Positions 10,658-28,018 of a stretch of DNA of 47,451 bases are shown piece by piece (the first letter of the stretch is position 1; each line of letters begins with the position of its first letter). The DNA comes from Alistipes senegalensis (GTDB lineage Bacteria > Bacteroidota > Bacteroidia > Bacteroidales > Rikenellaceae). The notes beneath the pieces are model-generated. The model had not been told where the DNA came from. It saw only the letters and a program-made list of their open reading frames with translations, and ran no database searches. Location: the NCBI GenBank assembly GCA_023664045.1, contig JAMPGH010000001.1, forward strand, positions 295,078-342,528, read 5' to 3'. The translations under genes and the position numbers were made by a program.

Positions 10658-11881
10658 CTATTTCTGCGACATGCGGGCGGCGAGCCGCTGGGCCAGCGTG
10701 CGGCAGGCGGCGTCGGCATCGTCGGTGAAGCCCTGTTTCATCTCCACGGGGTCGCAGGCCGCCTCCCACTTCATCCGCTGCGCGAAGTCGGCGATCTGCC
10801 GCACGGCGCAGCCGGCCCAGCAGAACGACCCGAAGAATGCGAAGCGGCGCTGGGGGATGCAGCGTGCGGCGACCATCTCCAGAAGCTGCGCCACGGGCGG
10901 GAAGAGGGCTCCGTTATAGGTGGGGCTGCCGACGACGAGGGTGTCGTAGCGGAAGATGTCGCGCAAGACGTACGACGGATCGGAGTAGGAGAGGTTGTGG
11001 ACGACGATCTTCTTGATGCCCGCCTCGGCCAGATGCCGCGCGATGCGCTCGGCCATCTGCTCGGTGTTGCCGTACATCGAGCCGTAGGCGATCACGGCGC
11101 CGGGTTCGCCCGCGTAGCGGCTCAGGCGGTCGTAGAGCCCCAGTACCTGCGGGATCTGCTGCTGCCAGACGGGTCCGTGCGTGGGGCAGATGGTGCCCAG
11201 ATCGAGGCTGCGGACCTTCTGCAGCGCCTTCTGCACGGGAGCGCCGTACTTGCCGACGATCGAGGCGTAGTAACGCCGCATCTCGTCCCAATACTGCGCG
11301 GGGTCGATCTGTGTGTCGGTGATGCCGCCGTTCAAGGCGCCGAACGTGCCGAACGCGTCGCCCGAAAAGAGCGTACGCCGCTCGGGGCACCACGTAACCA
11401 TCGTCTCGGGCCAGTGGACCATCGGGATCATGTGGAACGAGAGCGTCGGGCCGCCCAGATCGAGCGTGTCGCCCTCCTTGACCTCGAGCGTCGCGGCGTT
11501 GAGCCCGTAGAAACCCTCGACCATTTGCAGCGCTTTGGCGTTGCCGACGATGCGCACGCCCGGATAGCGCAGGCACAGCGCCTCGATGGACGACGAGTGG
11601 TCGGGCTCCATGTGGTCGATGACCAGGTAGTCGATCTTGCGGTCGCCGATTTCGCGGCGGATATTCTCGAACAGCCGGCCGGAGAAGTGCGACTCGACGG
11701 TGTCGATCAGCGCGATGCGCTCGCCCACGACCAGATAGGCGTTGTACGAAACGCCCGCAGGCAGGGGCCACAGTCCCTCGAAGCGGGTGGTGGTGCGGTC
11801 GTTGACGCCCACGTAACGGATGCCGGGCTGGATTTCCGGAATATTCATGGCGGGTAGTTTTGTATGGGTTTCCTGATTCAT
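10658..11881 (-). CDS. FprA-type flavodiiron protein (A-type flavoprotein)
   Basis: The 407-residue cytoplasmic enzyme reduces O2 and/or NO to protect an anaerobe. The N-terminal metallo-beta-lactamase-like domain has the full di-iron set: HMEPDH (His90, Glu92, Asp94, His95), MVHWPE, SGDAFG and PTHGP. The C-terminal flavodoxin domain binds FMN through YGSMYGNTEQ. No rubredoxin domain is fused, so electrons come from separate carriers. The start is uncertain: ATG at 11881 gives MNQETH, while ATG at 11848 gives MNIPEI and would remove 11 poorly conserved residues; neither has a convincing ribosome-binding site. The gene is monocistronic and convergent with the YhcH gene. Confidence 0.94.
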   Translation of the reverse strand: MNQETHTKLPAMNIPEIQPGIRYVGVNDRTTTRFEGLWPLPAGVSYNAYLVVGERIALIDTVESHFSGRLFENIRREIGDRKIDYLVIDHMEPDHSSSIEALCLRYPGVRIVGNAKALQMVEGFYGLNAATLEVKEGDTLDLGGPTLSFHMIPMVHWPETMVTWCPERRTLFSGDAFGTFGALNGGITDTQIDPAQYWDEMRRYYASIVGKYGAPVQKALQKVRSLDLGTICPTHGPVWQQQIPQVLGLYDRLSRYAGEPGAVIAYGSMYGNTEQMAERIARHLAEAGIKKIVVHNLSYSDPSYVLRDIFRYDTLVVGSPTYNGALFPPVAQLLEMVAARCIPQRRFAFFGSFCWAGCAVRQIADFAQRMKWEAACDPVEMKQGFTDDADAACRTLAQRLAARMSQK

Positions 11882-11995: not shown

Positions 11996-13612
11996 TCAGT
12001 AGGTCTGGCCAGCCTGAGGCACCCCCGGGATCGGGTTGTTGGTGCAGGCGGGGTTGACGTTGGTCTCGGCCTCGGGGATGATGAGCGGGAAGACGGGAGC
12101 CTCGGCGGGCAGGTTCCATGCGACGGTCTGCTCGAAGTTGGCGCCCAGACGGTGTACGGGCTTCTTCAGGCGCATGATGTCGAACCACGACAGACCCTCG
12201 CCCCAAAGCTCGATGCGGCGCTGGAACCAGACGGCGTCGACGAACTCCTCTTTGGACGAAGCCCCGCAGGTGTAGGAGGGGTCGCGGTAGCTCTGCACGA
12301 AGTTCTCCAGAATGGCCTTGCCCTCGGCGATGGAGCCGTTCTGGCTCAGGCCTTTGGCCTCGGCCTGAATGAGGATCATCTCCTCGACGCGCATCAGGGG
12401 GATGTCGCAGGCGTTGGTCGCGTTGTTGTAGATGTCGTTGTAGGCGCCGAACTTCACGTTGAGGTAGGGAGCCTGCCATTCGAGCCATTCGGCGATGTCG
12501 AAGGGGGTACCCTGATAGGTGAAGCTCCACGTCCAGTCGACGTAGGGTGCGACCCACTCGCCCGCGTCGTCGACCGTGGCCCACCACCCCTTGCGGACGT
12601 CGGTGTCGGCGATCCGGTCGTAGAGCGCGCTGTTGATGTAGCGGCCCGAGTAACCGGGGGCATAGCCGTTGCCGGTGAACGAACACATGTGCGCCGGGAA
12701 GTTGACGATGCCCGACTGCACGACGTCGTTCGATTCGCCGATGACGTTGCCCCACAACCATGCGTGGTTGAAGGCGTTGAACGAGGGTTTCGACACCTCG
12801 GCGATCGAGTAGGGGGTGTAGCCCCGGGCTGCGGCCACGGCATCGTCGTAGGCCTCGTCGTAACGCTGCATCACGAGGTGGGCACGGGCCCGCAGACCGT
12901 AGGCGACATGGCGGTCGACCTGTCCGGCGATACCCGTTTCGGGCAGGATGGCGATCGCCTCCCCGAGGTCGGCCAGAATCTGCCCGTAGATCTCGGCGAC
13001 CGTGGCGCGGGGGTTGTTCGTGGCCTCCTCGGCGGTCGTGGTGTCCAGCACGAGCGGCACGGCGGGCTCGTTTTCATGCCCGACGTAGGTGTACTGGTAG
13101 AGCTGCACGAGGTTCAGGTAGTCGAACGCCCGGACGGCGAGCGCCTGACCGCGGAAGTTGAGCATCGTGGCGTCCTCGCTGTCGGCCGGGGCCGTGGCGA
13201 TGACCTGATTGGCCAGACCCATCTGCTTGTAGAGGTTGTTCCAGATGAAGTAGCCGTATTCGGATGTCTGGGTGCGGTCTTCCATCGCCAGATTGGAAGC
13301 GAACCAGTTGTAACCGCTGTCCTCGGAGGGCATGTCCTGGCCCCACGAATCCATCATCAGCATGATGGCGGCGTACCCGAAATCGTAGTGGCGCTGCGCG
13401 CCGACCCAGTCCTCGATGGCGAGGAGCTCGATCATCGACGAATAGAGCGAGAGCACGTCGGCCTCCAGCTTCTCGGGATCCTGCTCGTAGATCTCCTGCT
13501 TCTGATCGTCGGTGATCGTATCTCCCTCGGGGACGGTGTTGAGGTCGTCGCCGCAGGAGGCGATCGTCAGCAGCGAGAGCACGACCGCGATGAACTTATC
13601 GATTGTTTTCAT
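11996..13612 (-). CDS. SusD/RagB family nutrient-binding outer-membrane lipoprotein (left locus)
   Basis: This 538-residue surface lipoprotein carries a signal peptide with lipobox TIASC (Cys20). TPR-like helical SusD features follow, including NPRATVAEIYGQILADL, the C-terminal PLMRVEEMILIQAEAKGL and WGEGLSWFDIMRLKKPV. SusD proteins cap the SusC porin and capture glycans or peptides. It follows the left susC by 22 bases. No glycosidase, protease or regulator accompanies this pair, so the substrate is unknown. The gene uses mostly G/C-ending codons. Expression is expected to depend on whatever drives the left susC, which as written has no visible promoter. Confidence 0.95.
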   Translation of the reverse strand: MKTIDKFIAVVLSLLTIASCGDDLNTVPEGDTITDDQKQEIYEQDPEKLEADVLSLYSSMIELLAIEDWVGAQRHYDFGYAAIMLMMDSWGQDMPSEDSGYNWFASNLAMEDRTQTSEYGYFIWNNLYKQMGLANQVIATAPADSEDATMLNFRGQALAVRAFDYLNLVQLYQYTYVGHENEPAVPLVLDTTTAEEATNNPRATVAEIYGQILADLGEAIAILPETGIAGQVDRHVAYGLRARAHLVMQRYDEAYDDAVAAARGYTPYSIAEVSKPSFNAFNHAWLWGNVIGESNDVVQSGIVNFPAHMCSFTGNGYAPGYSGRYINSALYDRIADTDVRKGWWATVDDAGEWVAPYVDWTWSFTYQGTPFDIAEWLEWQAPYLNVKFGAYNDIYNNATNACDIPLMRVEEMILIQAEAKGLSQNGSIAEGKAILENFVQSYRDPSYTCGASSKEEFVDAVWFQRRIELWGEGLSWFDIMRLKKPVHRLGANFEQTVAWNLPAEAPVFPLIIPEAETNVNPACTNNPIPGVPQAGQTY

Positions 13613-13634: not shown

Positions 13635-16600
13635 TTAGAACGTGAGGTTGATACCGCCCGAGATCGTACGGATCGGAGCGTAGCGGTAGCTGCCCGCCGC
13701 GGTGTAGGACTGACGCGGGTCGAGGCCCCGACGCTTGGTGAAGAGCGCCACGTTGTCGGCGGCCATGTAGAGGCGCAGCTTGGAGAGACGGATCTTGCGG
13801 GTCCACTTGGCCGGCAACGTGTAACCTACGGTGATGTTGGTGATGTCGAGGTAGTTCGAGCTGGTGAGGAAACGGTCCGACATGCCGTTAGCGTAGTTGT
13901 CGGCCGTGTAGAGACGGGGAACGTCGGTCGAACCGGCCTCGTCGCCGATCTTCCAGGCCCGGAGGATGTCCTTGTGCCAGCCCGTACCGGCCGTGGAGGC
14001 CGTACCGGCGTGCATGAGCGAAGCGTAGGTGTTGTCGTAGACCTTGCCGCCCAACTGGTAGGCGAAGGCGATCGAGAAGTCGACCCCGAAGAACTCCAGC
14101 GCGGTGCCGAAGCCGCCGTAGACCTCGGGCAGGATGTCGCCCGTGGCGAAGCGGTCGGCCTGAGCGTACTCCGTGGTGGTCGTGCCGTCGGCCATGTACC
14201 ATGTCGACTGTCCGTTCCCGTTGACCCCGGCGTACTTGCGCATGTAGAACTGGTACATCGACTCGCCCTCGCGGTAGATGCGCGAACCGTCGATCCACTC
14301 GCCGCCGAGCGACTTGTCGAGCTCGAGGATCTTGTTCTTGAGGTAGGTGAGGTTGACATCGAGCGTCCACGTTACGTTCTTGGTGCGGAAGACCGTGCTG
14401 CGGAGGTCGACCTCGACGCCCGAGTTGCGCACCGAACCCACGTTGGTCGGGAAGTAGGCGTAGCCGATCGAGTTGGGCGACGGCATGTAGTAGAGCATGT
14501 CCGAGGTTTTGCGCGAGAAGTACTCGACGCTGCCGGCCAGCCGTCCGTTCCAGAAGCTGAACTCCACGCCGGCGTTGACCGAGTGGCTGGTCTCCCACGT
14601 GATATCCTTGTTGCCCTTGTAGGAGAGGGCCGTGGCGAACTCGCCGTCGAGCTCGGTCAGCGTGTACTGGTCGGCGTAGGGATAGTAGTTGACGTAACCT
14701 GTCTGGTAGAGCAGGTTGTCGTTGCCCTGCACGCCGTACGAAGCCTTGATTTTCAAGAGGTCGATCCACGCGGCGTCGGCGAGGAAGCGCTCTTTGGAGA
14801 GGATCCAGCTCGCACCCACCGAACCGAAGTTGCCCCAGCGGTGATCTTTGTGGAAGCGCGACGAAGCATCGCGACGGTAGGAACCCGAAATGAAGTACTT
14901 GCCGTCGTAGTCGTAGTTGACCTGCGCGAAATAACCCTCGGTCGAGTAGTTGTTCGTATAGGACTCGTTCGACTGCTGGCTGATGGCGTTGTTGAGCTCC
15001 ACGACATCGGGGTTGAAGAGCTTCTCGCGGCCGCCCTCCAGATAGGAGTACTTCCACTTGTAGCTTTCATGACCGACGAGGATGTCGAGGTTGTGCTTGT
15101 CGGCGAAGGTGCCCGCATAGTTGAGCAACTGCTGCTGGTTGAGGGCCAGTTCGCGCTTGTTGGCGACGTAGACGATACCGCCGACTTTGGAGTACTGTCC
15201 GTAGTAGGGGTTGTAGAGCCGCTGGTAGCGGTAGGTCGAGAGGTCGACGCCGAGGTTATAGGTGAACTTCAGGCCTTTGTAGATGTCGACCGTGGCGTAG
15301 TAGCGCGAGGTGAAGTCGTCGTAGGTATAGGTCGCCTTGTCGAGCTCCCACATCGACGCGGGGTTCGAACCCGACATGAACGTACGCTTGTAGGGCATGC
15401 CCGTGGAGGTGTCGCCGAAGTCGTACATCGTGTAGCCGTGGCTGTCCTTGGCGACGGCGCCCTCGGCGTTGCGGATGTAGAGCGGGTAGATCGGGGCGAT
15501 CATGCCGGTCAGGTAGAAGAGGTTGCCCGACGAACCGTTCGCAGTCTGGTTGACCGGGTTGTTGTTCACGACGTTCGCATAGGACATGTTGGCGCCGAAC
15601 TTCAGCCACTTCTTGGCCTGATAGTCGGCCTTCAGACGGGTGGAGTAGCGCGAGAAACCCGAGTTGGACATGATGCCCGAGTCGTCGAGGTAGCCCAGCG
15701 ATGCGTAGTAGTTGATCTTGTCGGAGTTGCCCGAGATCGAGACGTTGTACTCCTGACGCAGGTTGCCCTTGTCGAAGAGTTCGTCGTACCAGTCGTCGGG
15801 CAGGAAGAGGTTGTCGCCGACGACGTAACCCGGCGTGGCGTTGGGATTGAGCTTGCCGTCGGCGCCGATCAGCGTCTCGCCCTCGGGGTAGTCGAAGACG
15901 CGGTAGCCTACGCCGCCGGCGCTGTTGGTGTAGACCTTGCTTTCGATGTACTGGGCCGCCTGCTCGGGCGTGTATCCGCCGAGAAGCTGCGCGTAGGTGC
16001 TCATGGACTGGCCCACGAGCTCCATGTACTGGCCCGGATCCTTGATGACGTCGTACTGCGGCACGGCGCGCGAGTTGGAACCCCACTTGGCGTCGACCGT
16101 GATGACGGCCTCGCTGCTCTTGCCGCGCTTGGTGTTGATGAGGATGACGCCGTTGGCGCCGCGGGCACCGTAGATGGCCGAAGCGGCGGCGTCCTTCAAT
16201 ACGGTCAGCGACTCGATGTCGGCCGAGTTGATCGACGAGATCGCACCGTCGTAGGGCACGCCGTCGACTACGTACAGAGGCTTGTTGCTGGCCGAGAAAG
16301 AACCGATGCCGCGGATGCGGATCGTCGCCTCGGTGCCGGGCTGGCCGTTCGAACTGGTTACCTGCACGCCCGACGTTACGCCCGAGAGGGCGTTGGTAAC
16401 GTTGGAGACCTGACGCTTGGCGATCTCCTCGGTCTTGATGACCGACGCCGAGCCGGTGAAAGTCTCTTTTTTGGCGGTGCCGTATGCCACGACGATCACG
16501 TCGTCGATAGCCTGCGAATCCTCCTCCAGCGAGATGTCGATGCGCGTCTTGCCGGCGATGGCGACCTGTCGGGGCATGTAGCCGATGAACGAGATCGACA

Positions 16601-16811
16601 GCGTGCCGTCGGCCGGAGCCGCGATGGAATACGAACCGTCGGAGGCGGTCGTCGTACCGATCGCCGTACCCTCTACCAGCACCGTGGCTCCCGCGATCGG
16701 CTGCCCGTCGTGGCCCGTAACCGTACCGGATATTTGCCGGTTCTGAGCCGAAGCGAGCAGCATCCCGCCTCCCAGAACGGCAATTAACGATAGTACAAGT
16801 TTTCTTACCAT
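13635..16811 (-). CDS. SusC/RagA family TonB-dependent outer-membrane transporter (left locus)
   Basis: The 1058-residue protein starts at ATG 16811 (MVRKLVLSLIA). A longer frame to 16916 adds non-conserved residues. After the signal peptide (ending near SAQNRQ) comes a carboxypeptidase-regulatory-like domain (ISGTVTGHDGQPIAGATVLV), then a DDVIVVAYGTAKK TonB-box-like segment. The plug domain has YGARGANGVILINT, and a C-terminal beta barrel ends in GINLTF. It is a clear paralogue of the right susC. The first 32 bases are identical to that gene and AT-rich, while the rest is GC-rich. No TAnnTTTG promoter faces it between its start and the recombinase gene, suggesting it is silent in this orientation and switched on by inversion. 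Confidence 0.96.
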   Translation of the reverse strand: MVRKLVLSLIAVLGGGMLLASAQNRQISGTVTGHDGQPIAGATVLVEGTAIGTTTASDGSYSIAAPADGTLSISFIGYMPRQVAIAGKTRIDISLEEDSQAIDDVIVVAYGTAKKETFTGSASVIKTEEIAKRQVSNVTNALSGVTSGVQVTSSNGQPGTEATIRIRGIGSFSASNKPLYVVDGVPYDGAISSINSADIESLTVLKDAAASAIYGARGANGVILINTKRGKSSEAVITVDAKWGSNSRAVPQYDVIKDPGQYMELVGQSMSTYAQLLGGYTPEQAAQYIESKVYTNSAGGVGYRVFDYPEGETLIGADGKLNPNATPGYVVGDNLFLPDDWYDELFDKGNLRQEYNVSISGNSDKINYYASLGYLDDSGIMSNSGFSRYSTRLKADYQAKKWLKFGANMSYANVVNNNPVNQTANGSSGNLFYLTGMIAPIYPLYIRNAEGAVAKDSHGYTMYDFGDTSTGMPYKRTFMSGSNPASMWELDKATYTYDDFTSRYYATVDIYKGLKFTYNLGVDLSTYRYQRLYNPYYGQYSKVGGIVYVANKRELALNQQQLLNYAGTFADKHNLDILVGHESYKWKYSYLEGGREKLFNPDVVELNNAISQQSNESYTNNYSTEGYFAQVNYDYDGKYFISGSYRRDASSRFHKDHRWGNFGSVGASWILSKERFLADAAWIDLLKIKASYGVQGNDNLLYQTGYVNYYPYADQYTLTELDGEFATALSYKGNKDITWETSHSVNAGVEFSFWNGRLAGSVEYFSRKTSDMLYYMPSPNSIGYAYFPTNVGSVRNSGVEVDLRSTVFRTKNVTWTLDVNLTYLKNKILELDKSLGGEWIDGSRIYREGESMYQFYMRKYAGVNGNGQSTWYMADGTTTTEYAQADRFATGDILPEVYGGFGTALEFFGVDFSIAFAYQLGGKVYDNTYASLMHAGTASTAGTGWHKDILRAWKIGDEAGSTDVPRLYTADNYANGMSDRFLTSSNYLDITNITVGYTLPAKWTRKIRLSKLRLYMAADNVALFTKRRGLDPRQSYTAAGSYRYAPIRTISGGINLTF

Positions 16812-16847
16812 AAACGTTGATTTTAGTTGAGTTTTTAAAATAAAAAA
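16780..16847. repeat. Left arm of inverted repeat spanning the susC start codon
   Basis: Bases 16780-16818 are the perfect reverse complement of 18637-18675 (39 bp, including the first 32 bases of both susC genes and AACGTTT before them). The match continues imperfectly to 16847, where a 17-base T/A block (16831-16847) is again identical to 18609-18625. This is a candidate recombination site for the tyrosine recombinase between the arms. Confidence 0.9.
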
Positions 16848-17127
16848 CGAACTGTAGAAACGGAAATGGTCGAAACGCCTGATTGGCAGTAGTTTGCGCG
16901 AAAGGCCGGCCGGCATCGGACCGGCTGGAGCCCAACCGATTGGAAATCAGGAATCCGCGGGTCTTCCGTCATGGAATACGCGGTCCGCAGCGGTTGCCAG
17001 AGAGTTACCGGAGCGATCGGTTCAAGAGCCGGAAAATAAGCTGTTTGGACCGATTCGTATATCGAAAGGGGGTCGCTTTATCGTTACCTTTAGCGCGGAT
17101 TATCGATCTAAACAAGTCGGAAGCAGC
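16848..17127. other. Spacer between left susC and recombinase: no leftward promoter seen
   Basis: This stretch contains no CAAAnnTA on the plus strand, that is, no TAnnTTTG facing the left susC; not even a CAAA tetramer occurs from 16812 to 17127. A weak rightward element, TACCTTTA at 17084-17091, could serve the recombinase gene (one mismatch, no good -33). Nothing else is recognised. Confidence 0.6.
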
Positions 17128-18366
17128 ATGAGAAATACCTTCAGAATACTATTCTACCTTAAGAAGAATGCGCCCCTCAGAAACGGTCTTGTCCCGGTCA
17201 TGGCCCGCATCACGATCTGCGGGCAGCGGACGCAGCTCTCCACGCATCTGTCGGTGGATCCGCGATGCTGGTGCGCGGCGACGGGGCGGCTTGCGGGGCG
17301 CGGCCGTGCGGCCGACGAGGCGAACCGGCAACTGGCGGAGATCCGGTTCCGGATCGAACAATGCTACCGGACGCTCTTTTTCAACGGAGCGTTCGTTACG
17401 CCGGTCATGGTCAAGGAGGCCTATTTCGGCATCGCGCATCCTCGATGCCGGCTGCTCGAATTTTTCCGCGAACACAACGACGAGTTCCGCCGGATGGTCG
17501 GTGTGAGCCGCTGTCAGGCTACCTATAATAAATACCGCTGCGTCTATCGGCATCTGGAGCGCTATGTCGAGCAAGATTACCGCCGGGCCGATCTGGCGTT
17601 CGACGAACTCGACAAAGGCTTCGTAACGGGATTCCATGCCTACATCGTCCGGCAGTGCGGCCATAAGAAGAATACGGCGTGGATCTACCTGATCGCGCTC
17701 AAACATATTCTGATGCTGGCCCGCAGCAAGGGGTATCTTAGCTGCGATCCGTTCGCGGGCTACAAGCTCCGGAGCGAATTCGTGGACCGCAACTATCTGA
17801 CGCTCTCCGAACTGAACGATCTGATCGGACTCGAACTTCCGGTCGGCACCGGGCGTCTCGTGCGCGATGCGTTCGTCTTTTGCTGTTTCACGGGGCTGTC
17901 GTATGTGGATGTCTGCAGTCTTACGCGGCAACATATCCGGCGAAGCTGCGACCAGCTGTGGATCGACATGGCGCGCCGCAAGACGGGGACCCGAATCAGC
18001 GTGCGGCTCTTCGCGCTGCCGCAGGCCATTCTGCGCCGCTATCTGCCGGAGGCGGGCGACGACCGGATATTCGATCTGCCCGGCAACGGCTGGTGCAACA
18101 AGTGTCTGGAGCGCATCGCGTCGTCGGTCGGCCTGTCGAAGCGGATCACCTTCCATGCTGCCCGCCACACCTTCGCCACGACGATCACCCTTTCGCAGGG
18201 CGTTGCGATCGAAACGATCAGCAAACTGCTGGGACACAAGAGTATAAGGACGACGCAGATCTATGCCGTCGTTACCCATTCCACGCTCGACGGCGAGATG
18301 AACCGCCTCTCGGAACGGATCGACTCGCTCTATCCGCGGCCAGCGGTGGCCGAACGCTGCGAATAA
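17128..18366 (+). CDS. Bacteroidetes-type tyrosine recombinase/integrase (candidate DNA invertase)
   Basis: This 412-residue site-specific recombinase has an N-terminal arm-binding domain (MRNTFRILFYLKK...), a SAM-like core-binding domain (about 100-200) and a C-terminal catalytic domain. Catalytic residues are Lys285 (RRKTG), His343 and Arg346 (HAARH), His370 (LGHKS) and the nucleophile Tyr379 (TTQIYA). The usual first arginine is Ser258 (FTGLSYVDV), as in the IntDOT-like recombinases of Bacteroidetes. ATG at 17128 is chosen because it begins the conserved arm domain; a longer in-frame extension upstream is not conserved. It lies alone between two divergent susC genes whose start regions form an inverted repeat, which points to promoter or operon inversion rather than phage integration. 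No excisionase, relaxase or phage genes are nearby. Confidence 0.93.
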   Translation: MRNTFRILFYLKKNAPLRNGLVPVMARITICGQRTQLSTHLSVDPRCWCAATGRLAGRGRAADEANRQLAEIRFRIEQCYRTLFFNGAFVTPVMVKEAYFGIAHPRCRLLEFFREHNDEFRRMVGVSRCQATYNKYRCVYRHLERYVEQDYRRADLAFDELDKGFVTGFHAYIVRQCGHKKNTAWIYLIALKHILMLARSKGYLSCDPFAGYKLRSEFVDRNYLTLSELNDLIGLELPVGTGRLVRDAFVFCCFTGLSYVDVCSLTRQHIRRSCDQLWIDMARRKTGTRISVRLFALPQAILRRYLPEAGDDRIFDLPGNGWCNKCLERIASSVGLSKRITFHAARHTFATTITLSQGVAIETISKLLGHKSIRTTQIYAVVTHSTLDGEMNRLSERIDSLYPRPAVAERCE

Positions 18367-18417
18367 ATCCCCGTGGCGACGGCATGCAGCGGCTCCGGAA
18401 ACCCTCCCGAGCCCGTT

Positions 18418-18446
18418 CGGCCGACGGATTTTTCAAAATCGGCCGG
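18418..18446 (+). terminator. Possible terminator hairpin after the recombinase
   Basis: CGGCCG arms flank an inner ATTTT/AAAAT pairing, with a small bulge, about 50 bases after the recombinase stop. It has no strong T-run after it, so it may be a hairpin with another role. Confidence 0.4.
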
Positions 18447-18568
18447 AAAAAGTCCCGAAAGGAACATTACGAATCGAAAGCGCATCCTTAAAAATTTCGA
18501 CAATATGTAACTATAAATTTACTTTTTATTTACCGATCATTATATTACTAAATTTTCTTATAAATATT

Positions 18569-18600
18569 CTTGCTTTTTACGATTCGATCGCCTATCTTTG
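18569..18600 (+). promoter_or_regulatory. Promoter of the right susC operon, inside the invertible segment
   Basis: TTGC (18569-18572), a 19-base spacer and TATCTTTG (18593-18600) fit the Bacteroidetes consensus closely. The surrounding 18490-18640 is strongly AT-rich in a GC-rich chromosome, as expected of an active promoter region. It lies just inside the right inverted-repeat arm, so inversion would place it 43 or 44 bases before the left susC ATG instead. Confidence 0.8.
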
Positions 18601-18608
18601 TCTTGAAC

Positions 18609-18675
18609 TTTTTTATTTTAAAAACCTACTAAAATTAACGTTTATGGTAAGAAAACTTGTACTATCGTTAATTGC
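18609..18675. repeat. Right arm of inverted repeat spanning the susC start codon
   Basis: This is the partner of 16780-16847. 18637-18675 is identical (inverted) to 16780-16818, and 18609-18625 to 16831-16847; the stretch between differs by one indel and a few substitutions. The arms are 1761 bp apart and enclose the recombinase gene and the rightward promoter. Confidence 0.9.
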
Positions 18676-21600
18676 GATTCTGGGGGCTGGCGCGATGTTC
18701 GTCCAGGCTCAGAACCGGCAGGTGTCCGGTACTGTCTCGGGCCCCGATGGTGCGCCTGTGGCAGGTGCGACCGTCATGGTCGATGGTACACTTGTCGGTA
18801 CGACCTCGAATGCGGACGGCAGCTTTACCATTCTGGCTCCCGTAGACGGCGCGCTGACCGTGTCTTTCATCGGTTACCGGCCCAAAACGGTCGCCGTAGC
18901 CGGCAAGACGCGTATCGACGTCTCGCTGGAGGAGGATTCGCAGGCTATCGACGACGTGATCGTCGTGGCGTTCGGTACGGCCAAGAAAGAGGCCTTCACC
19001 GGTTCGGCCAAGATGATTCAGTCGGACGATCTGATTAAAACCCAGTCTTCGAACGTGCAGGATGCACTCGTCGGCAAGGTTTCCGGCGTACAGTTCGCAT
19101 CGCCCTCCGGTCGTCCGGGTTCGGGTCAGAATATCTACGTCCGCGGCTACGGTTCCATGTCGGCCGGCAATACGCCGCTGTGGGTGGTCGACGGCGTACC
19201 TTACGAGGGCGATATCAACAACATCAACTCGGCCGATATCGAGTCGATTTCGGTGCTGAAAGATGCTGCCTCGAACGCGCTGTACGGTGCCCGCGGTGCC
19301 AACGGCGTGATCATGGTAACCACGAAGCGCGCCAAAGCCGGCGATGCGACCGTTACTTTCGACGGCAAGTGGGGTATCAATACCCGTGCCCTGCGGACCT
19401 ACGACATCGTGGAAGATGCCGGCGAATACTATGAAATGCACTACAAGGCGCTTTACAACTATTATACGCTGGAACAGAATTACGATGCCCTTTCGGCCAA
19501 CGCCGCAGCCAACCGGTTGCTGACGTCGAATACGGCCGGAGGTCTGGGCTACAATGTCTTCACGGTGCCCGAAGGTCAGAATCTCATCGGCGAGAACGGT
19601 CGTCTGAACCCGCTCGCCAAAGAGGGGCGTCTGGTCGACTACAATGGAAAGCAGTATTATCTGAAGGCCGACAACTGGCTCGACGAGATCTACAAGTCGT
19701 CGTCGTTCCGTCAGGAGTACAACGTGAGCGTGTCGGGCGCTACCGAGCGATCCAATTTCTATGCGTCGCTGGGCTATCTGGACAACACGGGTATCATCGA
19801 CGGTTCGGACATGGAGCGTTACACGGCCCGTCTGCGTGCCGACTATCAGGCCAAGAAGTGGCTGAAGGTCGGCGGCAATATGTCCTACAGCCATTTCGTA
19901 TGGAACAACGGCAACAACATCGAGGATGAAGGCGAAGCCGACGGCGGAAACGCATTCGTCAATGCCATTCAGATGGCGCCGATCTATCCCGTATACATGC
20001 GCGACGGCAACGGCAACATCATGATCGACCAGTACGGGTTCAAACTTTACGATACCGGCGACGGCCGCAACGGCGGTGCCCTGCGTTCCAACGGCGGTGT
20101 GAGCAACTCGCTGCAGGACATTCAGCTGAACCGCTACATCAACGAGGGCAACGCTTTCATGGCCAGCGGTTTCGCGGATTTCCAGCTTTACAAGGGGCTG
20201 AAAGTTACGTTGAACGGTAACGTAACGCTCGACGAAACGCGCACCACGGAGATGTTGAACCCCTATTACGGCCAGTTCGCTCAGTCGGGCGGTGCGATTT
20301 ACAAGAGCCATTCGCGCGACATCGCCTACAACCTGCAGCAGCTGATCTCCTACAACAATACGTTCGCCGACAAGCACAATCTCGATATTCTCTTAGGTCA
20401 TGAAATGTACAACCGCAAGCAATACGGTCTGTACGCCAACCGCAGCGTCATGTTCTCGCCGGACAATCTGGAGCTCAGCGGCGCTACGGTCGACTCTTCG
20501 AAATCGGGTTCGTCGGTTCTGGAGTACAACAACGAAGGTTACTTCTTCCGTGCCCAGTACGATTACGACGGCAAGTACTATGTTTCGGGATCGTATCGCC
20601 GTGATGCCTCGTCGCGCTTCCATCCCGACCACCGCTGGGGTAACTTCTGGTCGGCAGGTGCCGCGTGGATCATCTCCAAAGAGTCGTTCATGGCCGGTAC
20701 GCAAAACTGGCTCGACATGTTGAAACTCAAGGTTTCCTACGGTTCGCAGGGTAACGACAACTTGGGCGATACCGCTGCCAGCTACTATCGTTATACCGAT
20801 TATTTCAGCGTCGAGAGCGACGGTAACGGCGGCGTAACGAGCGTACTTGCGCAGAAAGGCAATCCCGAACTGACGTGGGAAACCAACTCGAACCTCAATG
20901 TCGGCGTCGAGTTCGGTTTCTGGAAAAACCGGCTGACCGGTAGCATCGACTTCTTCAACCGCAAGACCTCCGACATGCTCTTCCAGCTCGCTACGCCGGT
21001 GGAAGCGGGTTATACTTCGATCTGGACCAACATCGGCGACATGGTCAACCGCGGCGTCGAGATCGAGCTGAATGCCGATCTGATCCGTACGAAGAACCTC
21101 GTGTGGGATTTCTCGGTCAACATGACCCACTACAAGAACAAACTGGTCAAGCTGCCCGAGCAGTATAAGAACAACACCTCCACCGACGGCAAGGCCGGTC
21201 GTCAGAGCGGCAGCCGCTTCTATACCGAGGGCCAGTCCGTCTTCTCGTTCTACATGCCGACCTACGCCGGCGTTTCGGAGTCCGGTAAGTCGCAGTGGTA
21301 TACTTATGAGACCGATGAAAACGGCAACGTGAAGCGCGTAACGACCGAGGATTATTCGACCGCTTCGGCCGAAGGCCGTGAAATGCAGGGCGATGCACTG
21401 CCCGATCTCTACGGCGGTTTCAGCACGTCGCTGCGCTTCTACGGCGTCGACTTCTCGATCGGTTTCACCTATCAGATCGGCGGTCAGGTGCTCGACTCGG
21501 GCTACCAGTTCTACATGAATTCTCCGCAGGGTACCTCGACCGGCAACAACTACCACCGCGACCTGCTCAAGTCGTGGACGCCCGAAAACAAGGGTTCGGA

Positions 21601-21892
21601 TATTCCCCGTTTCGCCTATGCCGACCCCAATCAGGCCGCCACGTCGAGCCGCTTCCTGACCGACGCTTCGTATCTGAATATTCAGAACATCACGCTCGGT
21701 TATACGCTGCCCCAGCGCATCACGCGCAAGTTCCTCGTCGAGAAGCTGCGTGTCTATCTGGCCTGCGACAACGTATGGTACTGGTCGCAGCGTCAGGGTC
21801 TGGATCCCCGTCAGAGCATCAACGGTGCGACGAATCCCTACTATTACGCCCCGATTCGTACGTTCTCGGGCGGTTTGACGGTAACGTTCTAA
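18644..21892 (+). CDS. SusC/RagA family TonB-dependent outer-membrane transporter (right locus)
   Basis: The 1082-residue protein starts MVRKLVLSLIA, the same first 32 bases as the left susC. The domain order is the same: signal peptide, carboxypeptidase-regulatory-like domain (VSGTVSGPDGAPVAGATVMV), DDVIVVAFGTAKK, plug with YGARGANGVIMVTT, and barrel ending GGLTVTF. The two proteins align along their length but diverge strongly in the barrel loops, so they likely import different ligands. A good promoter lies 43 bases upstream. Third codon positions are noticeably richer in T than in the left copy (GGT and CGT are frequent), which may reflect high expression or a different origin. susD follows after 19 bases. 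Confidence 0.96.
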   Translation: MVRKLVLSLIAILGAGAMFVQAQNRQVSGTVSGPDGAPVAGATVMVDGTLVGTTSNADGSFTILAPVDGALTVSFIGYRPKTVAVAGKTRIDVSLEEDSQAIDDVIVVAFGTAKKEAFTGSAKMIQSDDLIKTQSSNVQDALVGKVSGVQFASPSGRPGSGQNIYVRGYGSMSAGNTPLWVVDGVPYEGDINNINSADIESISVLKDAASNALYGARGANGVIMVTTKRAKAGDATVTFDGKWGINTRALRTYDIVEDAGEYYEMHYKALYNYYTLEQNYDALSANAAANRLLTSNTAGGLGYNVFTVPEGQNLIGENGRLNPLAKEGRLVDYNGKQYYLKADNWLDEIYKSSSFRQEYNVSVSGATERSNFYASLGYLDNTGIIDGSDMERYTARLRADYQAKKWLKVGGNMSYSHFVWNNGNNIEDEGEADGGNAFVNAIQMAPIYPVYMRDGNGNIMIDQYGFKLYDTGDGRNGGALRSNGGVSNSLQDIQLNRYINEGNAFMASGFADFQLYKGLKVTLNGNVTLDETRTTEMLNPYYGQFAQSGGAIYKSHSRDIAYNLQQLISYNNTFADKHNLDILLGHEMYNRKQYGLYANRSVMFSPDNLELSGATVDSSKSGSSVLEYNNEGYFFRAQYDYDGKYYVSGSYRRDASSRFHPDHRWGNFWSAGAAWIISKESFMAGTQNWLDMLKLKVSYGSQGNDNLGDTAASYYRYTDYFSVESDGNGGVTSVLAQKGNPELTWETNSNLNVGVEFGFWKNRLTGSIDFFNRKTSDMLFQLATPVEAGYTSIWTNIGDMVNRGVEIELNADLIRTKNLVWDFSVNMTHYKNKLVKLPEQYKNNTSTDGKAGRQSGSRFYTEGQSVFSFYMPTYAGVSESGKSQWYTYETDENGNVKRVTTEDYSTASAEGREMQGDALPDLYGGFSTSLRFYGVDFSIGFTYQIGGQVLDSGYQFYMNSPQGTSTGNNYHRDLLKSWTPENKGSDIPRFAYADPNQAATSSRFLTDASYLNIQNITLGYTLPQRITRKFLVEKLRVYLACDNVWYWSQRQGLDPRQSINGATNPYYYAPIRTFSGGLTVTF

Positions 21893-21911: not shown

Positions 21912-23591
21912 ATGAAAATGAATCAGATCATAAAATCCACAGCCGTTTTTCTCGGATCCGCTCTGTTGTTCTCGGGGTGTATCGAGGAGACTTTCCCCGA
22001 GAGCGGGTATGCTACCGGCGGGCAGATTTCCGACTCGCCGTTCGCACAGGACGGTGTCGTTTCCGCCATGCCGACGATTCTTATCACCAGCTACATAGAT
22101 CTCGGCGAACACATCGATTTCGGTTATCCGGGCATGCTGGGCGCCAACGACCGGATGGCCGGAGAAGTATTCCCCGTGAGCGGTAACATGCCGGGCGGCA
22201 ACCAGTATTACGACCGCTGGCAGCCGTGGCTGTATCCCTGCAATTCCACGGGACTGGATGCGACGGGATATACGAATTTCTTCTACAACAATTATTACAA
22301 GTTCATCTATTCGGCCAACGAAGCGATCTCGCTGTTCAGCCAAAGCGAAGCGGCCCGCCATAATCTGGGCGTATCCAAAGTGTTCCGTGCGCTCTGCTAC
22401 CTCGATATGGCCCGGCTCTACGATCCGCTGCCGGCCAAAGCACCCGAGAAACCTTCGTACGAAACCGACGTATTGGCCGTAGCCGGCCTGACGGTTCCCA
22501 TCGTCGTCGAAGGGATGAGCGCCGAGGAGCTGGAGAACAATCCGCGTGCTACGCGCGAAGAGATGTTCACCTTCATTTTCGAAGATCTCGACGATGCCGA
22601 AGATTGCCTTTCCGACTATGCTCCCGCGACGAAAAATCTGCCCTCGCTGGCCGTAGTCTATGGCTTGAAAGCCCGTGCTTACCTTTGGCTGGGCGGTTTC
22701 GAAGAGCAGTATGAGAACATTCCCACCGGCGAAGCCGCTTACAAGCTGGCGGCCGAGTATGCCCGCAAGGCGATCGACGCTTCGGGCGCTTCGATTACGA
22801 CCGAGGCTCAGTGGCTCGACAAGACGATGGGATTCAATACCGTGATCTCCTCGTGGATGTGGGCCATGATCCAGTCGACCGACACCGTGCTCAACAACCT
22901 GCTGTCGTGGACGGCCCATATGTCGCCCGACGCCGTTTGGGGTTACGGAAACGGCGCTCAGCCCGGTATCTCGGTCTTCTCGTACGATCGCATCGCTTCG
23001 GGCGACTTCCGTAAGAAGATCTTCGTCAACGGGGATCGCGACTATGCGGCGATCAGCCCCTACATGAATCTTACCGAGGCGGAATTCAACGGCGAAGACG
23101 GCGCTATGGGTGCCATCGCTCCCTATACGTCGTTCAAGTTCCACACCAACGGCGGCGAGAAGCGCAACTTCACGGTGGGTAACGTAACGAGCATTCCGCT
23201 CATGCGCGTCGAGGAGATGTACCTGATCGAGGCCGAGGCGAAAGCGCATTACGATGCCGCAGAGGGACGTTCGCTGCTCCAGTCGTTCATGGCTGCCCGT
23301 GCGGCCGGTTATACGGTTCCCGCCGGCAACGATCTTGTCGAGGAGATCATCTTCCAGAAGCGGATCGAATTCTGGGGCGAGGGTATCATCCTTTACGACC
23401 TGAAGCGTCTGAACATGAGCATGCACAACGGCGACAACGGCACCAACGCGCCGTCGATGGCCCAGCTGACGACCGACGGACGCGCTCCCTGGTGGAACTG
23501 CGTGATTCCGCTTTCGGCCGTGCAGCAGAACAAGGCTCTGCTCGGCAAAAACAACCCCAACGGTACTTATACTTATAAGTCTGTAAAATAA
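21912..23591 (+). CDS. SusD/RagB family nutrient-binding outer-membrane lipoprotein (right locus)
   Basis: The 559-residue surface lipoprotein has a signal peptide with lipobox LFSGC (Cys23). SusD signatures include YKFIYSANEAI, LCYLDMARLYDPLP, NNPRATREEMFTFIFEDL, PLMRVEEMYLIEAEAKAHY and FWGEGIILYDLKRLN. It should pair with the upstream SusC as the ligand-capturing lid. Cargo downstream (a large lipoprotein and a subtilase) suggests that peptides or proteins rather than glycans may be the substrate, as for RagAB; this is inference. A good upstream promoter exists only before susC. Confidence 0.95.
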   Translation: MKMNQIIKSTAVFLGSALLFSGCIEETFPESGYATGGQISDSPFAQDGVVSAMPTILITSYIDLGEHIDFGYPGMLGANDRMAGEVFPVSGNMPGGNQYYDRWQPWLYPCNSTGLDATGYTNFFYNNYYKFIYSANEAISLFSQSEAARHNLGVSKVFRALCYLDMARLYDPLPAKAPEKPSYETDVLAVAGLTVPIVVEGMSAEELENNPRATREEMFTFIFEDLDDAEDCLSDYAPATKNLPSLAVVYGLKARAYLWLGGFEEQYENIPTGEAAYKLAAEYARKAIDASGASITTEAQWLDKTMGFNTVISSWMWAMIQSTDTVLNNLLSWTAHMSPDAVWGYGNGAQPGISVFSYDRIASGDFRKKIFVNGDRDYAAISPYMNLTEAEFNGEDGAMGAIAPYTSFKFHTNGGEKRNFTVGNVTSIPLMRVEEMYLIEAEAKAHYDAAEGRSLLQSFMAARAAGYTVPAGNDLVEEIIFQKRIEFWGEGIILYDLKRLNMSMHNGDNGTNAPSMAQLTTDGRAPWWNCVIPLSAVQQNKALLGKNNPNGTYTYKSVK

Positions 23592-23595
23592 AAAA

Positions 23596-25947
23596 ATGCG
23601 ATATATGAAAAGTTCGAAGATATTCATTCTGGCGGCCGTCGCCCTCGTTGCCGGGCTCTTCACGGCCTGCAGCGACGATGATTTCGCAGCAGGGCCCGCG
23701 GCTTCCGGCGCACAGGCCTATTTCCCGCAAAGCATCGCTTCCGAATACAGCATCGGCGACGATGTGAACGAGATCGTCATTCCGGTCATGCGTATCGTCG
23801 CCGACGAGGCGCAGACCATTCCTGTCCTTGCCGAGGATGAGTCGGGTCTCTTCTCGGTTCCCGCGGCCGTAACTTTCGCCGCCGGCGAAGAGAAGGCCGA
23901 ACTGAAAATGACTTTCGACCGCACGGCTCTCGAAGACGGTGTGGAGTACCCTGTTTCGCTGCTTCTCAACGACGAGGACAACACCACGCCCTACGGCAAC
24001 CGTTCGCTGGCCCTCAAGATCGTTCCCTGGCCGTGGGAGTCGCTCGGTACGGGTATGTTCCGCGACGACTGGCTTTCCTCCATGTTCAAGGGCAACGAAG
24101 TCGAGATCGAAGTGCAGATCTACAAACATAAGTCGCGCGCAGGTATCTACATGATCGAGGAGATGTACGGCTGGCCTTTCCTGACCGAGTTCTTCGGAGG
24201 TTCGCAGGCGGACATCGAATCGCAGGTGGGTCTTACCTATACGCCTACGAACATTACGCTCAACGCAAGCGATCCGAATGCCGTTTTCTTCCCTCGTCAG
24301 TTTACGGGAATCACGGATAAGGATCCCGACTACGGCGATTATGAAATCGCAACGTTCTCTTCCGGAAACGGCAAATTGGAGACCGGCGTCATCACCTTCC
24401 CGGCTTCGGGTCTTGCATTCGTTTGCGCCGCCGGCAATATGGCAGCCAATAAGAACGGCACTTTCCGCATCCTGTTGCCCGGTGCCGAAATCGTGGATTA
24501 CTCGCTCGAAGTCGAGTACGAGAGCATGCGTATGGATGCCGACGGTGCGACCGCTGCCATTCTGTCGTTCGTCTACGGTGCCGATGTAACGCGCATCGAT
24601 TATGCGGTCGCAGCGACCAACATCTCCGCCGAGGAGCGTGAAACGCTCGCAGCCGCTATTGCTGCCGGTACGGCCGAGCATGTCAACAAGATTGAGAATC
24701 TCGACGGGACGGGTTCCGTGTCGGAGCAGGTCGCTCTGACGGATGCGGGTCCCTATACCGTGGTCGCCGTCGCTTACGACAAGGCCGGCAAGGCTCTTGC
24801 TGCCGATTTCGTGTCGATGAACTTCTTCTTCCCCGGTGCGGGGGGGGGAGGTACGGCTCCCGAGTGCGATGTGGAGGCTCTGCTGGCTTTGCCCAGCGTG
24901 CTGTTCCAGCCGGAAACCGCCGCCCAATATCCCGATGAGAGCAACCTCGGATATAAGATTACGGGTACGGAGGTGAAGTCGATCCGGTATTATTTGAATA
25001 CGACGGATATCGTTGAAAACGGCGGTTTGGAACCCGAGGCCATTGTCGACGGATATGGAAGCGACATGCCTGCCAGTGCAATCGCGACGATCAACGAACA
25101 GGGCGCTTTCGGAAATATCTTCATCAACCTGAATCCGGATACTTCGTATACCCTGATCGTCAAGGCTACGAATGCGTACGGAAAGACCAAACTCGTAACG
25201 GCGGAGTGCTCGACGGGAGCTCCCGATTATAAGGGAGAACTCGTGATCGGAGATTACAAGATGTCCTATACTCTGCCCGCTGAGGATGGCGGCGATCCCG
25301 AGACTTTCGAAAATGTATTCACCGTGAAAGCGGCTTCGAGCGAAAGCGTCGTCGACTTCCTCGTATCGGATTTCGCCCTCGAGGATGGCGGCGTATGGAA
25401 CGGGAAATACGATTCTGCGGCTTCGACGCTGACGCTGACCAGCAGCGATCTGGGCAAGTGGTATTTGCTGAACGAGACGACTGCGTATTCTATCGGTTCG
25501 TATGCGGGCGAAGGCAGTAACGGCACCGATCCCGTGGTTCTGACCGTCGATGCTACGACCAAGCAGCTCAAAGGATTGCAGACCGATATCGAAATAGCTC
25601 TCGGTTCGGTCGAGGGAGGTCAGATAACAGATATCATCGGCGCATTGGGTATTTACTATGCCGACGGTACGACGATCGAACCTTATGCCGGTGCTGCGAC
25701 CTCCTCGGTCAAGTTGCACCGTAGCAACAAGGGCGTGAAAGTTCCGTTCCGCAGCGTGGCCGACATGCAGGCCGTCGTTCGTCGGAACCGCCTGACGTCG
25801 AATGTCGAAATGGCGGACAACGTCGGTCTGACGGTTCCGGTCCGTACGCTGGCGGTGAAGACGGAGCGTTGCGAGCGGCCTGCCAAGACGATCGAACGCA
25901 CGGCCGGAGCATTCATGCTCAACGAGAATCTCCGGTTGGTGAAATAA
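23596..25947 (+). CDS. Large multidomain surface lipoprotein (SusE-position protein)
   Basis: The 783-residue lipoprotein has lipobox LFTAC (Cys25). ATG at 23605 (MKSSKIF) is an equally plausible start, five bases or more from susD. Residues about 35-150 resemble a Calx-beta-like fold (FSVPAAVTFAAGEEKAEL...GVEYPVSLLLND). A FN3-like stretch with TSYTLIVKATNAYGKT lies near residue 515, and the C-terminal 250 residues are of unknown fold. By position it corresponds to the SusE/SusF-like accessory binding proteins that follow SusD. A run of nine G at 24840-24848 encodes the Gly-rich hinge around residue 416; a one-base slip there would truncate the protein. No catalytic motif was recognised. Confidence 0.85.
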   Translation: MRYMKSSKIFILAAVALVAGLFTACSDDDFAAGPAASGAQAYFPQSIASEYSIGDDVNEIVIPVMRIVADEAQTIPVLAEDESGLFSVPAAVTFAAGEEKAELKMTFDRTALEDGVEYPVSLLLNDEDNTTPYGNRSLALKIVPWPWESLGTGMFRDDWLSSMFKGNEVEIEVQIYKHKSRAGIYMIEEMYGWPFLTEFFGGSQADIESQVGLTYTPTNITLNASDPNAVFFPRQFTGITDKDPDYGDYEIATFSSGNGKLETGVITFPASGLAFVCAAGNMAANKNGTFRILLPGAEIVDYSLEVEYESMRMDADGATAAILSFVYGADVTRIDYAVAATNISAEERETLAAAIAAGTAEHVNKIENLDGTGSVSEQVALTDAGPYTVVAVAYDKAGKALAADFVSMNFFFPGAGGGGTAPECDVEALLALPSVLFQPETAAQYPDESNLGYKITGTEVKSIRYYLNTTDIVENGGLEPEAIVDGYGSDMPASAIATINEQGAFGNIFINLNPDTSYTLIVKATNAYGKTKLVTAECSTGAPDYKGELVIGDYKMSYTLPAEDGGDPETFENVFTVKAASSESVVDFLVSDFALEDGGVWNGKYDSAASTLTLTSSDLGKWYLLNETTAYSIGSYAGEGSNGTDPVVLTVDATTKQLKGLQTDIEIALGSVEGGQITDIIGALGIYYADGTTIEPYAGAATSSVKLHRSNKGVKVPFRSVADMQAVVRRNRLTSNVEMADNVGLTVPVRTLAVKTERCERPAKTIERTAGAFMLNENLRLVK

Positions 25948-26053: not shown

Positions 26054-28018
26054 ATGATGACAACGAAGAGAACTTTCTGGAGTCTGCTGCTCGCTGCGGC
26101 GATCCTTGCCGGGTCGTGCGCTCAGGACGAGATCGGGCAGGCGGCGGAGACCGGTCCCGGCGACGAGATCTCCTCCAAACTGGTCTTTACGGCCGAGAAT
26201 GCCACGCCGGGCGAGCTGCTGGTGTGCTTCGGCGATGAAGCGGTGGCGCGGATCGAAGCCTCGGTCGGTGCCGTAACGCGTGCCGGCGGCATCGCCACCC
26301 GTTCGGGAATCGGCGATTTCGATGCGGTTCTCGACGGCATCGGAGTGAAGTCGCTGCGACGTCTTTTTCCGATCGACAAACGAAACGAGGAGCGTACGCG
26401 CGCTGCAGGATTGCATCGCTGGTACCTTGTCGAATTCGACGTCGACGCCGATCTCGATCGTGCGGCCCGGAATATGGCTGCGATCGCCGAGGTAAGCAAC
26501 GTGGAGTTCAATCAGCGGCTGAAGCATGCGAGCTGCGGTAAGGTCGTACCTCTGACCGAAGACGAAGCCGCTCCCCGGACCCGGACAGCCGTGAATTTCG
26601 ACGATCCCTATCTGGATCGTCAGTGGCACTACATCAATACCGGCGATCCGACGATCTATGCGGAAGCCCGGGCCGGAGCGGATGTCAACTGCGCCGAAGC
26701 GTGGCGTCTCTGTACGGGCGATCCGCGTGTCGTGGTTGCCGTGATCGACGACTGCGTGCAGTGGGATCACCCCGATCTGGCTGCCAACATGTGGATCAAC
26801 TCCGACGAGAAAGAGAACGGTGCCGACAGCGACGGAAACGGTTATGCGGACGATATCCACGGTTACAATTTCGTGGATGACACGCGCCTGACGATCAGCA
26901 CCGGAGAAGACGCCGATCACGGCACGCACGTGGCCGGCACGGTGGCCGCCGTCAATAATAACGGCACGGGGGTCTGCGGCATCGCCGGCGGATCGGGCAA
27001 CAACGACGGCGTGAAAATCATGTCGTGCCAGATATTCTGCGACGATCGGGCCGCTTCGGCCGCTCAGACGGCTCTCGCTTTCAAATATGCGGCCGATAAC
27101 GGTGCTGCGATCGCTCAGTGCAGCTTCGGTTACGATGCCGGAGCGATCCGCTCGGATGAAGCCTATGCCCGCAATGCCAGCGCCGAGAAACAAGCGATCG
27201 ATTACTTCATCGCTACGCAGAATTGTCCTGCCGTGGGCGGAGGCGTGGTGATCTTCGCGGCCGGCAACGACGCTGCCGCCATGTCGGGTTATCCGGGGGC
27301 TTACCGGGATTATGTTTCCGTAACGTCGTTCGCATGCGATTTTACGCCTGCCTACTATACCAACTACGGTCCCGGTTGCAACATCGCCGCTCCCGGAGGC
27401 GATGCCTACCAATCCTATCCGAAAGCTACGTCGCAGATTCTGTCGACGATCACCGACGGCGGATACGGATACATGCAGGGCACGTCGATGGCCTGTCCGC
27501 ATGTTTCCGGAGTGGCGGCGCTGGGTATCTCCTATGCGTTGCAGCTGGGCAAGACCTTCTCGCAGAGCGAGTTCGTGGCTCTTCTGCTCACCTCGGTCAA
27601 CGATCTCAATCCCTATTGTACGGGGAGCGATGCCAAGTATGCGAAGCAGATGGGCAGCGGTTATATCGATGCTTACCGACTGTTGATGAACGTGCGCGGC
27701 ATTACCTGCATTCCCGTACCGGTGGGTACGCAGGCTTCGATCCGCCCGCTGGATTATCTGGGAGACGGCAATCCTTATCTGACGATCGCAGGTGCGGAAA
27801 TCGCGGCCGAAGACAAAGCCCGGCTCGGAATCGCATCGGATCCTACGATTTTCTCCAATCAGGTGCTGTTCAAATGTTCGAAACCGGGCTCGGCGATCAT
27901 TCGGATCCGCCTGCAGGCCGGAACGAACAGCGGCAGCGGAATGAACGGTATGACGATTACCCGGGAATTCGCATTGATAGCCCGGGAAAATCGTTCGTCG
28001 AACGGAGGTTGGTTATAA
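26054..28018 (+). CDS. Subtilisin-like (S8) serine protease lipoprotein
   Basis: The 654-residue secreted protease has a signal peptide with lipobox LAGSC, so it is probably anchored at the cell surface. An N-terminal propeptide-like domain (about 30-170) is followed by the S8 domain with the catalytic triad Asp232 (VIDDCVQWDHPDL), His289 (DHGTHVAG) and Ser478 (GTSMACPHVSG). Asn in FAAGNDAAAMSG is the oxyanion residue. About 130 C-terminal residues have a beta-rich look. It follows a SusC/SusD/lipoprotein block, so it could cut proteins outside the cell to feed peptides to that transporter. A hairpin upstream may allow separate control. Start at ATG 26054; the next Met in frame is adjacent. 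Confidence 0.93.
   Translation: MMTTKRTFWSLLLAAAILAGSCAQDEIGQAAETGPGDEISSKLVFTAENATPGELLVCFGDEAVARIEASVGAVTRAGGIATRSGIGDFDAVLDGIGVKSLRRLFPIDKRNEERTRAAGLHRWYLVEFDVDADLDRAARNMAAIAEVSNVEFNQRLKHASCGKVVPLTEDEAAPRTRTAVNFDDPYLDRQWHYINTGDPTIYAEARAGADVNCAEAWRLCTGDPRVVVAVIDDCVQWDHPDLAANMWINSDEKENGADSDGNGYADDIHGYNFVDDTRLTISTGEDADHGTHVAGTVAAVNNNGTGVCGIAGGSGNNDGVKIMSCQIFCDDRAASAAQTALAFKYAADNGAAIAQCSFGYDAGAIRSDEAYARNASAEKQAIDYFIATQNCPAVGGGVVIFAAGNDAAAMSGYPGAYRDYVSVTSFACDFTPAYYTNYGPGCNIAAPGGDAYQSYPKATSQILSTITDGGYGYMQGTSMACPHVSGVAALGISYALQLGKTFSQSEFVALLLTSVNDLNPYCTGSDAKYAKQMGSGYIDAYRLLMNVRGITCIPVPVGTQASIRPLDYLGDGNPYLTIAGAEIAAEDKARLGIASDPTIFSNQVLFKCSKPGSAIIRIRLQAGTNSGSGMNGMTITREFALIARENRSSNGGWL

Follow-up and report, generated by a model that had tools for sequence, protein, structure and literature searches.

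The window, the whole 47,451-nucleotide stretch of Alistipes senegalensis DNA that we analysed, contains two divergent susC genes, each followed by a susD gene. The left receptor gene, susC-L, encodes a protein of 1,058 aa (13635..16811, minus strand; SusC/RagA family TIGR04056, 788 bits) and is followed by susD-L (11996..13612, minus strand). The right receptor gene, susC-R, encodes a protein of 1,082 aa (18644..21892, plus strand; TIGR04056, 808 bits) and is followed by susD-R (21912..23591, plus strand). Both susD products match the SusD family, and a SusC/RagA receptor with an adjoining SusD is therefore found on each side of the segment described below. In the PDB, each of the two SusC proteins has matches to several SusC chains and to RagA, and other SusC/RagA chains match better than BT_2264 does.

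On the right, susD-R is followed after 4 bp by a gene for a 783-aa protein (23596..25947, plus strand), which has an N-terminus that appears lipoprotein-like by eye and no Pfam or NCBIfam match at E 0.001. An S8 subtilase gene (26054..28018, plus strand) starts 106 bp after it. The first-pass annotation had described a right-hand SusC/SusD/protease operon. The SusC/SusD pair stands, whereas the protease, given the 106-bp gap to the preceding gene, is not proved to belong to the switched operon and its membership is plausible only. To the left, beyond susD-L, a gene for a flavodiiron-type protein (10658..11881, minus strand) provides a fixed neighbour for scoring the orientation of the segment in relatives.

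Between the two susC genes lies the gene for a 412-aa tyrosine recombinase (17128..18366, plus strand) with Arm-DNA-bind_5, Phage_int_SAM_5 and Phage_integrase domains. The protein contains both the integrase catalytic domain (PF00589) and a C-terminal HxxR...H...Y region, which aligns with IntI4 and XerA chains; we presume that these residues have their generally accepted roles in the window's enzyme. The reading frame is intact. Across 10 pairs of recombinases dN/dS ranges from 0.075 to 0.184 (0.13-0.18 for the window against four relatives), part of these ratios being rough because dS exceeds 1 in some pairs, and these values indicate that the recombinase is under purifying selection. A TACCTTTA box upstream of the start codon (17085..17092, plus strand), which recurs in 9 of 13 loci compared (the window counted), is a candidate for the recombinase's own promoter. 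As the gene moves along with the segment, and probably under a promoter of its own, the enzyme would be made whichever way the segment lies. In one relative (L161, G053:C4), a genome with the segment inverted, the 409-residue recombinase frame is interrupted by a stop at residue 160, which may mean that the inverted state is locked there or else reflect a sequencing error.

The segment is bounded by perfect inverted arms of 17 nt (16831-16847 and 18609-18625) with 1,761 nt in between. These cores sit within an ungapped 421-nt inverted pair of 76% identity, and 18609-18720 and 16735-16847 are 85% identical over 112-113 nt. The left arm (16735..16847, minus strand) and the right arm (18609..18720, plus strand) each comprise the crossover core, the 5' leader and the first codons of the respective susC gene. 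No perfect inverted match between the two noncoding spacers is longer than the 17-nt core, and none of 500 dinucleotide shuffles gives one of that length (mean 8.8, maximum 14); inverted repeats thus flank the segment beyond what chance would give. The right arm has no other good match across the window's genome, the assembly of which is 86% complete and shows a single arrangement of the segment.

To place the locus among its relatives, we considered recombinase matches across the genus, which occur, at an E cut-off of 1e-60, in 90 of 180 genomes (this count includes the genome of the window). Surroundings were compared for 44 related places. The window's genome contributes one of these, a second copy (L152), and other genomes the remaining 43; four similarly scoring genus matches were left out. 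With the switch layout defined as a susC gene that lies within 700 bp of the recombinase and points away from it, half of the places (22/44) have the layout, 17 of them on both sides and five on one side, and the remaining 22 are without it. Four of the one-sided loci (L028, L155, L162 and L169) are close to a contig end and the fifth (L148) is not. Together with the window, the 22 layout loci form the set of 23 loci and 41 arms used for promoter and orientation scoring. The recombinase keeps a constant position inside the segment across these relatives, so the first-pass observation that the recombinase lies within its own segment extends beyond the window. The core or a near variant of it is present at both ends in all 18 two-sided loci, window included. 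Core patterns were broadened after an initial count and one -7 mismatch was then permitted; exact counts are accordingly given beside the looser ones.

Several related loci depart from this arrangement. Five loci (L137, L139, L145, L147 and L148) belong to a separate recombinase clade that shares 40-42% identity with the enzyme of the window. They have the promoter on the same side, variant cores and, in four of the five, the two-sided layout; within the stretches covered, the window's neighbour genes are unmatched there. At L163 (G109:C5c) an inverted repeat of 22 nt (95%, E 0.015) lies at the usual distances from a related recombinase, at ~8970 and ~10705 of the reverse complement of the locus, with no adjoining susC and with a left gene that appears lipoprotein-like by eye. 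Eight related recombinases lacking the switch layout (L165, L166, L170-L174 and L135) directly precede the gene of a conserved protein whose N-terminus, judged by eye, resembles that of a response regulator. Outside Alistipes, the best-scoring recombinase matches listed comprise 75 loci (L030-L104; recombinases mostly 36-41% identical); when these loci were searched with the SusC and SusD proteins of the window (E 1e-6), none of the 75 had susC on both sides. Nor does any of 49 further loci from the order, again among the best-scoring matches listed (29 with only ~1.5 kb of flank; four places are doubled, leaving 45 distinct).

The segment carries an outward promoter at its right end (18570..18600, plus strand), consisting of a TTG at -33 (18570-18572) and a -7 box, TATCTTTG (18593-18600), which ends 8 nt before the right arm. 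We name it as Bacteroidetes type from the TAnnTTTG -7 and the -33 consensus, which we take to be characteristic of such promoters. At the window's left arm there is no TTG/-7 box pair of this type. When the 30 nt preceding the core were scored in every readable arm (41 arms in 23 loci), a TTG at -33 combined with a -7 box (one mismatch allowed) was found in every one of the 21 recombinase-3' arms and in none of the 20 opposite ones. The -7 box alone, with the same tolerance and no demand at -33, occurs in 21/21 and 4/20 arms, respectively. An exact -7 box is present in 18/21 and 0/20 (Fisher p 7.5e-9, related loci being treated as independent), the box being imperfect in three of the 21 promoter arms, and the distance from its end to the core varies from 7 to 10 nt. 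Because the paired elements are confined to recombinase-3' arms, the segment has a single recognisable promoter, which lies within it on one side and points outward past the end of the recombinase gene. The first-pass description of a 1761-bp interval with a tyrosine recombinase and one right-facing promoter, bounded by an inverted repeat at the starts of divergent susC genes, is thus borne out at each point.

Other candidate signals were set aside. Between the recombinase and the promoter there is one weak consensus match to a terminator (18413-18427), and the stretch folds little better than shuffled sequence (35/200 shuffles as good); we therefore claim no terminator. A sigma-70 scan was discarded as unsuited to the phylum. 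A promoter of another type could precede susC-L.

Comparison of relatives reveals that the segment occurs in both orientations. In the closest pair, G198 (L160) and G053 (L161), the importer operons are 98.2% and 94.3% identical but lie the other way round with respect to the recombinase segment, which is itself 91.7% identical. The alignments overlap at the two breakpoints by 21 and 23 nt, around CTTTTTATTTTAAAA, and the flanks align for kilobases on both sides; the G198 genome is one contig. The shared site is this short because one of the two susC genes begins well beyond its core. Breakpoint overlaps between L159 and L161 are 23 nt at both ends, and a second reversed pair is provided by G189 (L167) and G219 (L164), at 89.5% and 92.3% identity.

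A comparison of whole flanks gave both signs in 10 pairs of loci because the importer cassettes themselves have moved, and orientation was therefore scored on fixed neighbour genes. Twelve of the 23 loci could be scored in this way and 11 could not. Five share one orientation (the window, L025, L027, L161 and L164) and seven have the other (L026, L156-L160 and L167). The flavodiiron gene supplied the sole vote in 7 of the 11 scored relatives, and votes were mixed at no locus. On the recombinase tree at least four orientation changes are needed, an approximate figure since 9 of the 29 inner branches are weak; orientation differs between sister rows in L164/L167 (support 100/99), L026/L027 (88/92) and L159/L161 (83/61). 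Both orientations therefore occur between species (12 scored loci, including one close pair), and the first-pass proposal that inversion can re-aim the promoter finds support in these orientations, in the one-sided promoter and in breakpoints at the shared core.

The importer cassettes show a dynamic of their own. At L026 (G007:C11) a third susC has a core site farther out, giving three susC cassettes with core-like sites (4839, 9700 and 11500) and one recombinase; as two of these three sites have the same direction, cassette loss as well as inversion could occur. At L027 (G060:C5) the inverted arms (9337-9686 and 11491-11840) are 100% identical over 350 nt. The two receptors there are 100% identical over the first 300 coding nt and ~25-45% identical as proteins over the remainder, which looks like the product of a recent exchange. 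In a comparison of the window with G009, the first ~360 nt of the right receptor are retained (80-97%) and its remainder differs; in the left receptor it is the remainder that is retained (83-95%), with greater divergence across coding nt 61-300 (65-83%). Such patterns suggest that cassettes have exchanged sequence within the susC coding arms, by whatever means. We tentatively consider a broader reading in which the segment would serve as a conserved read head that chooses among changing importer cassettes, with exchange taking place in the coding arms as well as at the core, passing the signal peptide and N-terminal domain between receptors and so producing chimeric receptors. The hints behind this rather doubtful extension are the third cassette in G007, the identical 300 nt in G060 and the window/G009 mosaics that break near nt 300-360.

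We consider it highly likely that the locus is a two-way promoter-inversion switch between two importer operons, the segment very probably flipping to choose the active importer. The resident tyrosine recombinase would recombine two opposed core sites (TTTTTATTTTAAAA with flanks), each placed between the segment and a susC start, and would thereby turn the segment, whose cargo is the recombinase gene and, at the 3' end of that gene, a single promoter. In the state found in the window, this promoter would drive susC-R/susD-R and the genes behind them (the gene for the 783-aa protein and perhaps the S8 protease gene), and susC-L/susD-L, which has no promoter of Bacteroidetes type, would be off. 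After inversion the same promoter would drive susC-L/susD-L. From the sequence comparisons we infer that this recombinase is the agent of inversion and that inversion happens within a strain. The two importers would presumably be expressed exclusively, one at a time, since there is just one recognisable promoter.

The long similarity between susC 5' ends raises the question of whether ordinary homologous recombination between them turns the segment, with the recombinase as a bystander. The 350-nt arms of G060, identical throughout, and the apparent exchange of receptor N-termini, with breaks near nt 300-360, would fit such a process. An overlap of 21-23 nt is short for RecA-type exchange, however, and this is the whole extent of the overlap around the core between the G198 and G053 alignments. 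The constant position of the recombinase in the segment and the purifying selection acting on it are likewise at odds with a bystander role, and we regard this explanation as unlikely.

It is also conceivable that the inversions took place between species and that the switch has since become locked in the window's genome, where the assembly has a single arrangement; the interrupted recombinase frame of G053 could be read in the same way. We judge this quite improbable, as the window's recombinase is intact, with the low dN/dS against its four relatives given above, and its arms remain perfect over 17 nt. Misassembly deserves mention because several relatives are metagenome-assembled genomes, in which orientation differences could be errors. 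Each state is nonetheless present in several genomes, among them the single-contig G198, and in the closest pair the repeat is short and the flanks extend for kilobases on each side, so that errors of this kind are an extremely improbable source of the pattern.

Such a switch would constitute a compact, self-contained nutrient-receptor toggle in Alistipes. With a defined core, a promoter and naturally inverted relatives, the importer state in the gut could be read from metagenomes through counts of the two junctions. Related systems suggest a wider relevance. SusC/SusD regions with disease-linked orientation have been described and SusC proteins reported to raise T-cell responses (PMC10939037), and B. 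thetaiotaomicron has nutrient-receptor shufflons, with receptor shuffling discussed in phage resistance (PMC12548429); the Alistipes switch could therefore matter beyond feeding. Invertons near TonB/SusD genes have also been reported in a defined community (PMC11892184). Among the open-licence full-text literature matches listed, we found no description of a switch of this type in Alistipes.

For B. fragilis, as the first-pass annotation had noted, inversion of SusC/SusD loci is well established, with the Tsr0667 invertase and with shufflons in which repeats extend over the ragA/susC start codons (PMC4747536, PMC5729914). The Alistipes locus resembles these systems in its SusC/SusD (RagA/RagB-like) operons, in repeats that overlap the susC starts and in the probable use of one invertible promoter for alternative operons with an invertase in charge (PMC4747536, PMC5729914). 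The B. fragilis systems differ in that genes are brought to the promoter on large segments and many regions depend on one invertase (PMC4747536, PMC5729914), whereas the window has one 1.8-kb segment, one promoter and two flanking operons, with a third cassette in one relative. The MAFF locus of B. thetaiotaomicron has BT2263/BT2264, the invertase homologue BT2267 and BT2268/BT2269 in succession; the two pairs change expression in opposite directions, and promoter inversion was proposed as one possible explanation (PMC6080902). The two loci share a pair of opposed SusC/SusD operons and a DNA-invertase homologue, inversion being suspected in B. thetaiotaomicron (PMC6080902). The accessible text of that paper does not state that BT2267 lies inside the inverted segment or define the sites (PMC6080902). 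We thus liken the window to the Tsr0667/BT2267 type by its layout of divergent SusC/SusD pairs with an invertase at the locus.

A further parallel is found outside the Bacteroidetes importers. The Salmonella Hin switch uses a serine recombinase, and the promoter there, directed outward in a short invertible segment, serves one side. The Alistipes locus similarly combines a recombinase gene and an outward promoter in a short invertible segment. The likeness to Hin is one of layout only, as the window has a tyrosine rather than a serine recombinase and serves two import operons. Hin exemplifies a recombinase encoded inside its own segment, an arrangement that occurs only occasionally (PMC5903667). 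Taken together, these comparisons indicate that the Alistipes locus is a version of the known SusC/SusD inversion switches, built on a Hin-like plan in which the recombinase lies inside the segment it would invert.
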